Shown here piece by piece: positions 16,367-24,316 of a stretch of DNA of 26,109 nucleotides (positions are counted from its first letter, which is position 1; each line of letters starts with the position of its first letter). A program made the position numbers and the translations under genes. This stretch comes from a virus: the IMG/VR virus record IMGVR_UViG_3300027861_000177, positions 1 to 26,109 of that record. One strand, given 5' to 3'. The notes under the pieces were generated by a model, which saw only the letters and a program-made list of their open reading frames with translations, was not told where the DNA came from and searched no databases.

Positions 16367-17467
16367 TTATTGTTTATTTTTACTGCTTCTTATTCTCAAA
16401 CCTTTACCATCGTTTTCGCTAATTGCCCTAGCTTTAAATCCTGTATCACCAATTTTTTGTGGTGTTGTTCTGACATTCATGTTGATGTTTTTGCTTTTTT
16501 TAGCAATATCACCTACACCGTCTGCCTTGCCTTGCTCATAAAAATACTTAGCAAAGCGTTCAGGATCCATAGCAGCACTTAATGCCCTATGCCAGCCTTG
16601 TGCATCTGAAATTAAACCGTCTTCACCTATATATTTTCCTATAAAATTATTTAAGTTTAGTTGTTTAGATTTCATTTCCTGTGCATCTCCATAAGAATAA
16701 CCTATTTTTTTATCTCCCATTTCGAACTCAAAACCTTTGAATTCAGGATTAAAAACTTCGTTTGTTCTTTTTTCGAAATACTCATTCTTTTTTTTATTAG
16801 CTTCTTCAATAGTTTTAGACTCTTGAATATAACTTTTATAAGCATCAAGTTCTTTTTGCATTTCATCAGAAATAGAATTCCCACTTGACTCAAGAGGAAT
16901 ACTGTATTTTTCTTTAAAATCATTAAGATACTTTTTTGCTTTAGAAAGTTCTCTTTTTTTAGCTATATTTTTCTTTTTAATTTCAGACTCATCGTCTATA
17001 TCTTCATCATATGAAAATCTAGACTCCATTAAATAATGAATGTCTTCATTATCTAAATCCTCTTCTGTTAAAGAATAATATTCAGCTAACACTTGATCGT
17101 CTTCTAGTTCATTGTAATTTTTATTTGCTTTTACAAAATCACCAAAACCTCGACCAGTTTCTTTTTTAAATTCTAAATACTTAGAGACATCTTCCGGTAA
17201 TTTTTGATTTACTTCTCTTTGAGTAAATAAATCATCTATTGAAGATATTTCCTTGTCTTTATATCTGTTTTTAATATATGAAAGAACGTCTTCATCTTTT
17301 ATTTCAACAGGCTCTTCTGCTTTTTGAGGCTCTTCTGCTTTTTGAGGCTCTTCTGCTTTTTGAGGCTCATTATTTAAAGATTGCTCATGTTTTTCTAAAA
17401 GATCTTTTTCTACCTCTTGAACAGATTTTTGTTCAATTGGATTTACTTCTTTTACTGTTAATTTCAT
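16367..17467 (-). CDS. Capsid scaffolding protein, 366 aa
   Basis: The protein is highly charged (Lys, Glu, Asp) and predicted helical over most of its length, with long coiled-coil-like stretches (residues about 150-240: KKKNIAKKRELSKAKKYLND). There is no apolar core of an enzyme. Residues 34-53 contain three EPQKAE hexapeptides. The C-terminus is basic (GLRIRSSKNKQ), as expected for the capsid-binding end of scaffolds. It sits between portal and major capsid protein, the standard scaffold position, and begins 15 nt after a TAnnTTTG box. The scaffold assignment comes from composition and synteny, since scaffolds are poorly conserved in sequence. An internal core protein is the alternative. 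Confidence 0.75.
   Translation of the reverse strand: MKLTVKEVNPIEQKSVQEVEKDLLEKHEQSLNNEPQKAEEPQKAEEPQKAEEPVEIKDEDVLSYIKNRYKDKEISSIDDLFTQREVNQKLPEDVSKYLEFKKETGRGFGDFVKANKNYNELEDDQVLAEYYSLTEEDLDNEDIHYLMESRFSYDEDIDDESEIKKKNIAKKRELSKAKKYLNDFKEKYSIPLESSGNSISDEMQKELDAYKSYIQESKTIEEANKKKNEYFEKRTNEVFNPEFKGFEFEMGDKKIGYSYGDAQEMKSKQLNLNNFIGKYIGEDGLISDAQGWHRALSAAMDPERFAKYFYEQGKADGVGDIAKKSKNINMNVRTTPQKIGDTGFKARAISENDGKGLRIRSSKNKQ
17310..17368 (-). repeat. 18-nt tandem repeat coding for EPQKAE units
   Basis: The unit ggctcttctgctttttga (+ strand) is present three times without change at 17310-17327, 17328-17345 and 17346-17363, with a partial fourth copy. It lies in frame in the scaffold-like gene, and the exact identity of the copies suggests recent expansion. 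Confidence 0.9.
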
Positions 17468-22203: not shown

Positions 22204-22459
22204 ATCCTGATAATGGTTGAGGTTTATTTTTTGACTCTTTTCCTTCTATTAAGTTTTTTTCTGCCTCTATTCTAGTTAGTATTTCGAAAGCATCAAATAT
22301 AGCTAGTTTTTTAGTAGCGGCAGCATTTTTTAATTTATCAGCAGCAAGCTCATCATCTTCTCCGTATTTTATAATTTGCTCTTCAGCAACTTTTATTAAT
22401 TGTTTAACAGCTTTTTCACCAGCTTTAATTATGTCTAGTTTTATTTTATCTACATTCAT
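22181..22459 (-). CDS. 92-aa small helical protein, candidate terminase small subunit
   Basis: The protein starts with an ATGA overlap with the 187-aa gene and overlaps TerL by 23 nt. It looks all-helical: IKAGEKAVKQLIKVAEEQII, then LAADKLKNAAATKKLAIFDA and FEILTRIEAEKNLIEG, followed by a basic tail. Small terminase subunits are short helical DNA-binding proteins encoded just before the large subunit, so position and composition fit. I see no definite helix-turn-helix, so another helical packaging accessory is possible. The tight overlap implies that translation of TerL depends on this gene. Confidence 0.5.
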   Translation of the reverse strand: MNVDKIKLDIIKAGEKAVKQLIKVAEEQIIKYGEDDELAADKLKNAAATKKLAIFDAFEILTRIEAEKNLIEGKESKNKPQPLSGFAERRST

Positions 22460-23019
22460 AATAGTAAAGTTACTTGATGATCAAACATTCTATAAAGCTT
22501 TTCCCCATCAACATTAAATTCGTATTCACTATTTGGTTTAAAGGAAACTTTATCGCCTTTATTTACTCCTTTGCTAATTAAATATTTATTTGGATACTTA
22601 ACCAATCCCATTAAAGGTTCTTCATTTTCATGACTTTTTAAATAAGTTTGTTCTTTTTTTATTGGCTTTATCATGCAATATTTAGAATGAGCATTCCAAA
22701 CATTATTATGTTTGTATAAAAAAAATTGATCATTGTCTATAAAGAATAAATCATCTTTAAAAAAACTTTTACCACTTCTTTCTACTCCTTTCATATCATT
22801 ATAATATTTAAAAACATTATGATGAACTAGCAATGTATCACCCACTTGAACAGGCCCATTGTAATTTATAGGAGTTTCTACAACTATTGCATATCTATTT
22901 GAAGCTTTGTGATCTTCTTTTGAAGTACTGATAATAAAATTTATATTTCCTATTTTTTTAGTACTATCGTATCTTTTATTCCCCTTAGGTTTTACAATAA
23001 AATAAAAAGGTGATTTCAT
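22456..23019 (-). CDS. 187-aa protein with possible duplicated GroES-like folds
   Basis: Linked by ATGA overlaps to both neighbours. Two halves look alike. Residues about 5-104 run from YFIVKPKG through VGDTLLVHHNVF (59-70) to FFKDDLFFIDNDQFFLY. Residues about 113-187 run from KYCMIKPIKK through KGDKVSFKPNSEYEF (154-168) to DGEKLYRMFDHQVTLL. Each has the order 'strand with K-P, then GDxhhhh, then a strand ending in D/E-x-x-hhhh' found in GroES-type chaperonin barrels. Phage co-chaperonins such as T4 gp31 are known, and position beside terminase, portal and capsid genes would suit a folding role. This is fold-level pattern reading; the mobile loop is not obvious, and a structural beta-barrel is the alternative. 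Confidence 0.45.
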   Translation of the reverse strand: MKSPFYFIVKPKGNKRYDSTKKIGNINFIISTSKEDHKASNRYAIVVETPINYNGPVQVGDTLLVHHNVFKYYNDMKGVERSGKSFFKDDLFFIDNDQFFLYKHNNVWNAHSKYCMIKPIKKEQTYLKSHENEEPLMGLVKYPNKYLISKGVNKGDKVSFKPNSEYEFNVDGEKLYRMFDHQVTLLL

Positions 23020-23249
23020 TCAAAATATATATTATACTCAATAGAAATAGGCATATTACAATTAAAATCTTTCCATAAAAAAATTTCTCCTTTTTTGTTT
23101 TTTATAAAAATACCTATTGATTGATGATTTTTATTCATTTTTATTAAATGAATTAAATGACTTCCTCCTAGTATTTCTTGCCCCACAACATAATGCATAG
23201 CTCCTCCTTTGTAGTCAGGACCAACAGCTATCTTACGAATATCATTCAT
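23016..23249 (-). CDS. 77-aa conserved-type hypothetical protein, first gene of the packaging operon
   Basis: The small soluble protein starts MNDIRKIAVGPDYKGGAMHY, with a VGQEI segment next, followed by alternating strands (HQSIGIFIKNKKGEIFLWKD). I recall similar 'DIRKI..GPDYK..MHY.VGQ' openings in Bacteroidota phage proteins of unknown function. It has no membrane segment and no metal-binding Cys/His pattern. Its stop overlaps the next start as ATGA. It is the first gene after the terminator/promoter junction at 23271-23312, and so heads the operon that runs through terminase and portal. Function unknown. Confidence 0.6.
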   Translation of the reverse strand: MNDIRKIAVGPDYKGGAMHYVVGQEILGGSHLIHLIKMNKNHQSIGIFIKNKKGEIFLWKDFNCNMPISIEYNIYFE

Positions 23250-23270
23250 TTAATTAGATTTAAATTATAA

Positions 23271-23278
23271 CAAATATA
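23271..23278 (-). promoter_or_regulatory. Bacteroidota-type -7 box (TATATTTG) for the packaging operon
   Basis: TATATTTG on the minus strand, 22 nt before ATG 23249 and 3 nt after the U-tract of the preceding terminator. It is the same octamer as at 13989-13996 in the same arrangement. No TTG at -33 is seen. Confidence 0.5.
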
Positions 23279-23281
23279 GGT

Positions 23282-23312
23282 AAAAAAAAATACCCCTAAA
23301 AAAAGAGGTATT
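23282..23312 (-). terminator. Intrinsic terminator closing the fibre / structured-RNA transcript
   Basis: The minus strand reads AATACCTC, a T-rich 8-nt loop, GGGGTATT, then nine T. Arms are + 23305-23312 and 23289-23296 (8 bp with one G-T), and the A9 run on + is 23282-23290. It lies about 100 nt after the fibre gene stop, directly behind the structured element. Confidence 0.8.
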
Positions 23313-23406
23313 CTAAGCGAAGAGGTGACGCTAGTTGAGATCATCACAAAGATGAGTCTCTAATTGCGAACATCTCAAGGATGTGACACTAACTGCGCAC
23401 CTCGCA
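23311..23406 (-). repeat. Imperfect 29-nt tandem repeat array with internal dyads
   Basis: Two full units, 23340-23368 and 23369-23397, match at 22 of 29 positions. A weaker unit (23311-23339, about 17 of 29 against its neighbour) precedes them, and a partial start of another (CACCTCGCA) follows. Consensus on + is a CATC-loop-GATG dyad followed by a spacer ending CTAAyTGCG. Several differences are in paired positions and keep the stem. The outer half-units supply the two arms of the closing stem. Confidence 0.75.
23313..23406 (-). ncRNA. Candidate structured RNA: three-way junction made of tandem 29-nt repeats
   Basis: This GC-richer stretch in an AT-rich gap folds well. Closing stem P1 pairs 23322-23336 with 23391-23403: GAGGTG/CACCTC, CGC/GCG and AGTT/AACT, 13 bp with single-nt bulges at 23328 and 23332. 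Inside are P3 (23337-23345 with 23351-23360, 9 bp, bulged 23356, 5-nt loop) and P2 (23370-23374 with 23380-23384, 5 bp, 5-nt loop). On the RNA, J1/2 is 6 nt, J2/3 is 9 nt, and P3 abuts P1 with no linker, so the two could stack. It lies on the strand of all genes, starts a few nt after the fibre stop and runs into the terminator at 23282-23312. It is not coding, because the 29-nt period puts TAG in every frame. Family not recognised. A DNA site is the alternative. Confidence 0.55.
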
Positions 23407-23410
23407 TATT

Positions 23411-24316
23411 TTAAAGAACTATTGAAGCAGGACCATTAGAGCCTTGTGTTAAAGTATATCCTGCTACAATTTTATAATCAGTATTGTTATATTGATATTT
23501 TAACATTAATGCGTTTGATAAATTTCCAAATATATATGGTAATTCATGGTTTGTGTTTGTCCATGCAGGGTTTGGAATGCCTATAGCAAATTTCATTATA
23601 ATTTGTGATGTTCTTCTTTCGTTTGGATTATTCTCAGAATTTACATTATCAGCAGGTCTTATAACTGAAAATCTTGTACCCCAAAAATCATCTGTTGTTG
23701 TCGCAGGAAGCGATGTTACTTCTGCATTTGTATTATCATACAAAAATCCTAAAGGATTAAAAGGCACTTCGATATATGTATTAGGTCTTAAAGAAGCAAA
23801 GTCAGTTATCAGTGACCCTGTCTTAGCAATCTTTAATTCACTGTTTATATCCCATTCTGTTGGAATAGAAAATAAAGATTCACCTGAGACAAAACCAGAC
23901 TGCTCGCTTGATGCCCAATTGCTTCCTGGGAAATTAGTTCTTTGATACTCTCCATTGTTATGAGAAGGATGAATAAAATTTGCCCTTTTCATTATATACA
24001 CACCATCTATTAGTCTAGTTTTTGACTTTCTATATCTAAACATAAAAAGCCTAGGATTTTTAGTTAACCAATCTGTTTCAACAGGTTTTTGCATAGCCAC
24101 AAAAGCTTTATTATTTCTTGTAGTTGCATCAACATATGGTCTTTTCAAAACATACATATAAGGTGTAGGAATATCATCAGCTTGTCCTATGTAAGTTTTT
24201 AAAGCATCAACAGTGATGTTCTTAGTAGCATTACTAGGCGTACCATTTGTTTGACTAATAAGTATTTTGTCACTTCCTTTCGGAGTAACAGAATTGTATG
24301 TGCTAATCTTTGGCAT
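23411..24316 (-). CDS. 301-aa probable fibre / appendage protein
   Basis: The N-terminus PKISTYNSVTPKGSDKILIS followed by TKNITVDALKTYIG resembles the virion-attachment segment at the start of many Bacteroidota phage fibre or appendage proteins, as I recall it. The rest is Asn/Thr/Pro-rich with aromatic residues and no membrane segments or enzymatic motif (for example RLFMFRYRKSKTRLIDGVYI, HPSHNNGEYQRTNFPGSNWA, IIMKFAIGIPNPAW), compatible with a beta-rich receptor-binding or decoration domain. It lies between the lysis cassette and the packaging operon, with its own promoter-like box 19 nt upstream, and its transcript continues into the repeat/hairpin element. It could be a tail fibre, a head fibre or a decoration protein; the sequence does not decide. 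Confidence 0.6.
   Translation of the reverse strand: MPKISTYNSVTPKGSDKILISQTNGTPSNATKNITVDALKTYIGQADDIPTPYMYVLKRPYVDATTRNNKAFVAMQKPVETDWLTKNPRLFMFRYRKSKTRLIDGVYIMKRANFIHPSHNNGEYQRTNFPGSNWASSEQSGFVSGESLFSIPTEWDINSELKIAKTGSLITDFASLRPNTYIEVPFNPLGFLYDNTNAEVTSLPATTTDDFWGTRFSVIRPADNVNSENNPNERRTSQIIMKFAIGIPNPAWTNTNHELPYIFGNLSNALMLKYQYNNTDYKIVAGYTLTQGSNGPASIVL

Follow-up and report, generated by a model that had tools for sequence, protein, structure and literature searches.

Several described systems share parts of their layout with the element reported here. In diversity-generating retroelements, a hairpin lies downstream of the variable repeat, just beyond the 3' terminus of a receptor-binding phage gene, and the packaging RNA of phi29 is a small phage RNA with a three-way junction, located near packaging genes. 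Tandem repeats are found in type III antitoxins, the units of which fold singly into pseudoknots and range in repeat number from 3 to 5.6 (PMC8860590), and a phage-borne type III form, pseudo-ToxI, provides a precedent (PMC3475682). In TIGR arrays, the spacers act as guides and a Nop-domain protein is required (PMC12045711). The element described below, termed the trefoil, matched no Rfam 15 family at the gathering score, either in the window or in loci of its four sequence classes, which agrees with the earlier note, where no family had been recognised. Sub-threshold Rfam matches reached at most 19.7 bits and fell largely on the adjoining terminator. In addition, no description of the element was found among open-licence papers. 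We know of no natural RNA in which three tandem units close on themselves and are kept at three across four sequence classes. The trefoil is previously undescribed, and its newness lies in its architecture and its family.

The window, i.e., the whole stretch of DNA that was analysed, is a 26,109-base viral record from IMG/VR. Its genes lie on the minus strand, and PHROG matches were obtained to terminase, portal, virion and GroES-like families. Through the GroES-like protein, the window is related to isolated Flavobacterium elemo phages and to Cellulophaga and Maribacter phages; the trefoil-bearing viruses are a group of Bacteroidota phages. The trefoil occurs once per record, in records of up to 62.7 kb. 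In the window it follows a 301-aa gene and is followed in turn by a 77-aa ORF, a GroES-like gene, a small ORF and the terminase gene. The GroES-like co-chaperonin gene (22456-23019, minus strand), directly upstream of the terminase gene, is conserved in many relatives. The gap between positions 23250 and 23410 is indeed gene-free and repeat-bearing, as had been noticed before; the repeats, read in that earlier note as two units flanked by fragments, are three 29-nt units, which on the minus strand run, in order, GCGAGGTGCGCAGTTAGTGTCACATCCTT / GAGATGTTCGCAATTAGAGACTCATCTTT / GTGATGATCTCAACTAGCGTCACCTCTTC, followed by GC. The features of the locus are as follows, in minus-strand order:

23411-24316, minus strand: putative tail-fibre/adhesin gene of 301 aa that precedes every class 1 trefoil; its family is marked by KFAIGIPNPxWTNTN
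23317-23405, minus strand: predicted trefoil RNA, composed of three units of 29 nt and a final GC; covariance model match of 104.6 bits, the window itself being in the model's alignment
23395-23405, minus strand: closing stem P1, 5' arm GCGAGGUGCGC, pairing with 23331-23317; 97-100% of cells paired, five double-changed pairs (altered on both sides)
23390-23394, minus strand: junction linker 1, AGUUA; ARYUA is conserved in all three linkers
23366-23389, minus strand: arm H1, 3' half of unit 1 with 5' half of unit 2, loop CUUGA; 92% of cells paired, 8 of 9 pairs double-changed
23361-23365, minus strand: junction linker 2, AAUUA
23337-23360, minus strand: arm H2, 3' half of unit 2 with 5' half of unit 3, loop UUUGU; 92% of cells paired, 9 of 9 pairs double-changed
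23332-23336, minus strand: junction linker 3, AACUA
23317-23331, minus strand: closing stem P1, 3' arm GCGUCACCUCUUCGC; covariation as for the 5' arm
23287-23314, minus strand: intrinsic terminator, 11-bp stem then U tract, directly past the trefoil; also present in relatives without a trefoil
23271-23278, minus strand: TATATTTG, which matches the -7 promoter element of Bacteroidota and precedes the operon of the 77-aa, GroES-like and terminase genes
23016-23249, minus strand: conserved 77-aa ORF, the first gene past the terminator; its start is conserved in relatives

The comparative data show three tandem units that are predicted to form a cyclic three-way junction: pairing takes place between adjacent units and between the first half of unit 1 and the last half of unit 3, and three near-identical linkers join the stems. 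In each arm, a small asymmetric internal loop separates the outer stem from a short inner stem next to the junction. The closing stem, for which 13 bp had been proposed, contains 11 pairs (9 + 2) and two bulges, of 1 and 3 nt.

On the minus strand, the fold surpassed every one of 200 dinucleotide shuffles in stability (z -3.4; plus strand, z -2.7), and RNAalifold predicted the trefoil unaided from 19 relatives, both in line with the three-way junction of the earlier note. The first relatives were loci fetched by means of the terminase and the GroES-like protein, and more were added by a linker-spacing scan. In the resulting gap-free class 1 alignment of 19 distinct sequences, 94.9% of cells were paired according to the trefoil and 21 of its 29 pairs were double-changed, and none of 500 shuffles matched any of these measures. 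Six held-out sequences from outside the model (L222, L239, L250, L244, L185 and L173) scored 77-99 bits. Across all 25 distinct relatives, 22 of the 29 pairs were double-changed, so the suggestion that unit-to-unit differences in the stems preserve pairing holds; homologues with broken stems would have spoken against an RNA, and with 94.3% of cells paired (score 0.54 vs 0.14 when shuffled) the result favours one. Because the shuffle control leaves relatedness in place, the strength of this evidence was judged mainly by the number of pair types per column (up to six) and by slid controls, in which 34-51% of cells were paired. Chance is excluded, since conserved and compensated copies exist in other phages. 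Furthermore, G-U cells numbered 41 and A-C cells 2 in the alignment without L250, against a shuffled expectation of 49 and 24, and this excess of G-U over A-C argues for a fold of the coding-strand RNA. Within a class, stems are kept through compensatory change, and linkers and loops are kept by sequence.

As the units are alike, two other folds need weighing. Unit-by-unit hairpins, which correspond to the earlier idea of a hairpin repeat unit that arose by duplication, pair 77% of cells compared with 95% for the trefoil; the arms are formed between units. A rod fold, in which unit 1 pairs with unit 3 and unit 2 folds on itself, loses in all 12 discriminating sequences and equals the trefoil in 13 sequences with near-identical units. 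The nearest-neighbour energy model, evaluated with all covarying pairs forced, prefers another fold in many or most single sequences. Coding by a small ORF was also considered and set aside: the unit length of 29 nt is not divisible by three, and L170/L174-type members have no ATG before GCGAGG.

Four sequence classes share one three-unit layout, and every complete copy that was read has three units. A class 1 scan blind to unit number recovered 21 complete distinct arrays, all with three units; three apparent single units in the same scan were cut by contig or locus ends. Class 2 occupies the same position as class 1, with linkers UGGUUYG and loops UAGU, and its six distinct sequences are 97% paired with six double-changed pairs. 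Classes 3 (L289, L295, L299 and L305) and 4 (the single sequence L310) were exposed by a scan for nothing but the cassette of terminator and promoter, and again have three units. From class to class, the linkers are wholly replaced. A 15-mer scan found one true relative (L165), the remaining matches looking like chance, and no credible blastn match to the element was found in phage isolates. A GIY-YIG endonuclease was looked for in 3 records and found in none.

This layout can be set against the described arrays and RNAs. Like TIGR arrays, the trefoil has two alternating short conserved segments with similar-sized variable segments between them and a terminator at its end; TIGR arrays, however, mostly comprise 5-15 units, whereas the trefoil has three. 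Its variable segments are not free guides, because they are mutually complementary, form stems and carry compensatory changes. The Nop-domain Tas protein (PF01798) was absent from 15 records, possibly partial, with positive controls. The phi29 packaging RNA is likewise small, built around a three-way junction and close to packaging genes; the trefoil differs in lacking an Rfam match and in being linked to the fibre rather than to the terminase side. As sibling phages with the same downstream operon have no trefoil, the element is probably not needed for packaging in this group; the 77-aa ORF, too, is found in phages without trefoil repeats.

The gene upstream of the trefoil yielded no Pfam or PHROG match, and fold and family searches gave nothing significant; its predicted structure was poor (pLDDT 61.5). 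We infer a putative fibre from its place after the lysis genes and from a short conserved N-terminus followed by exchangeable sequence. No tblastn match was obtained in phage isolates with three fibre subfamilies as queries, nor was the fibre C-terminus found in bacterial genomes. A search with this C-terminus returned 47 loci, all 47 of which carry a trefoil soon past the fibre stop, at a distance of 5-15 nt in class 1 and 7 nt in class 2. Because the query derives from trefoil-bearing loci, a terminator-anchored census served as the independent test. Herein, all 49 contigs with the fibre mark carried a trefoil and no fibre occurred without the RNA, while 20 of the 23 contigs without the fibre mark lacked it; eight further contigs had too little sequence. 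The Fisher value for this census includes no correction for relatedness, and the one class 4 contig (L310) seems to have been counted under the loose class 1 pattern, which leaves the totals as they are. The fibre family is not strictly required: in the other three contigs (L209, L210 and L212), the gene preceding the trefoil, which is of class 2, encodes a different appendage protein of 164 aa and has no fibre mark. L096, L293 and L316 contain a close relative of this appendage gene and no trefoil. The fibres of classes 3 and 4 are 43-44% identical to that of the window, and those of class 2 about 37%.

In class 1, the distances between RNAs follow those between fibres (Mantel r 0.81, p 0.0002) much more closely than those between the next genes (r 0.27, p 0.04). 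Between the window and L165, identity is 96-100% across the fibre and the RNA and 65-73% beyond about position 23200. Taken together, this identity pattern and the correlation between RNA and fibre distances indicate that the fibre gene is swapped together with the RNA and the terminator, as a single module. The linkage of fibre and RNA could be mere co-transfer of adjacent DNA. Sequence evidence gives good support to the RNA fold, to the rule of three units and to the link with the fibre. In another group of loci (L288, L302, L307, L313 and L292), the appendage type ends in ...YYSVIPSTF and a single conserved hairpin, GTAGGTGACTTACCTAC, replaces the trefoil before the same terminator; appendage types therefore seem to carry their own 3' UTRs. 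In L197 and L235, the fibre frame is shifted near its end (stop at ...KYQYIKL, 58 nt before the RNA) and the trefoil is intact.

With regard to transcription, the intrinsic terminator that the earlier note had placed on the coding strand was confirmed at 23314-23287 (minus strand). The consensus of the Bacteroidota -7 element is TAnnTTTG (PMC6847099). All 25 relatives have this motif past the RNA, and none of them has it within the 100 nt upstream of the RNA. Since the motif follows the terminator, the packaging operon probably has its own promoter, and since no promoter motif occurs in the 100 nt before the RNA, the trefoil can be read as 3' UTR sequence belonging to the preceding gene. The simplest reading is that it would be part of the fibre 3' UTR. 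Of the small phage RNA or riboregulator proposed previously, the structured coding-strand RNA stands, its free-standing status finds no support, and riboregulation is possible. Attenuation through pairing of P1 GAGG with terminator CCUC was examined as well; it is possible in most class 1 copies and is not possible in L017/L244 (GAAG) or in class 2, so this pairing lacks conservation and the idea was set aside.

We infer that the trefoil is expressed and functional. Our leading proposal, held tentatively and at somewhat less than an even chance, is that the putative fibre mRNA may carry the trefoil in its 3' UTR as a structured element that acts in cis and is read by a specific partner. The trefoil would be transcribed as the tail of the fibre transcript and would fold while emerging, and its near-symmetric junction would be recognised by the partner, which could thereby tune the lifetime or the translation of the fibre message. 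A candidate partner is the fibre protein itself, acting as an autoregulator, which would best account for the linkage as well as the three-fold layout; an RNA-binding protein of the host would be equally workable. Specific recognition is preferred over a bare block to exonucleases because unit length and number are fixed and the unpaired linkers are conserved.

Two alternatives are unlikely, but have to be weighed. First, the trefoil may be processed out of the fibre 3' UTR as a trans-acting small RNA whose loops or linkers act on other RNAs of the phage or the host. A discrete fold ending in a terminator, together with conserved unpaired loops and linkers, suits such a role, and 3'-UTR-derived small RNAs affecting phages are known in other systems (PMC13250501). 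Against it, the trefoil has no promoter motif of its own; the best local pairing candidate, in which a linker would pair with the region where the 77-aa gene starts, is not conserved; and with linkers replaced in full among the four classes, the targets would have to change too. Second, and again improbable, the trefoil and the terminator hairpin could simply block 3'-5' exonucleases with no specific partner. The stable fold directly before the terminator is what a stabiliser of this kind would look like, but a bare barrier needs neither exactly three units, nor a fixed arm length, nor three conserved linkers, and sibling phages have the same terminator without a trefoil. Were this the case, the kind would already be known and the trefoil would be only another member.

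Tail fibres are usually trimers. A more specific form of the cis-acting proposal, which we regard as rather doubtful, would match a near-C3 RNA to a C3 protein: the trimeric fibre would bind the three linkers of its own mRNA, each fibre subfamily would have its own linker code (hence four classes), and the recognition pair would coevolve and move as one module. With its tie to a putative host-recognition gene, the trefoil may show that phage adhesins are controlled at an additional, new level; alternatively, it may be a natural RNA scaffold with three-fold symmetry.

An antitoxin-like reading of the repeats is very unlikely. Tandem RNA repeats followed by an intrinsic terminator in a phage do recall ToxI (units of about 30-36 nt) and its phage-borne form (PMC3475682). 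However, ToxI units are independent pseudoknots, variable in number and placed beside a toxin gene, whereas the trefoil units pair with one another and are fixed at three: folding of each unit into its own hairpin accounts for 77% of cells vs 95% for the trefoil, and all 21 distinct complete class 1 sequences have three units. The linkage to one fibre family would be left unexplained. ToxN (PF13958) gave no match in 15 records, and the control genomes were silent too. The least probable reading, a hot spot of recombination or exchange at the DNA level, by which fibre modules would be shuffled and for which the RNA fold would be incidental, gains from the trefoil's place near the edge of an exchanged module, but that edge is some 100 nt further downstream, close to where the 77-aa gene starts, both the excess of G-U over A-C and the compensatory changes favour a one-strand RNA fold, and the retroelement reverse transcriptase (PF00078) was absent from 17 related records of up to 62.7 kb, possibly partial, with positive controls. 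The retroelement hairpin is alike in being a structured element just past the 3' end of a receptor-binding gene, and unlike in being a single hairpin where the trefoil has three arms.

Elsewhere in the window, a 366-aa gene between the portal and the major virion protein (16367-17467, minus strand) contains the perfect peptide repeat QKAEEP three times.
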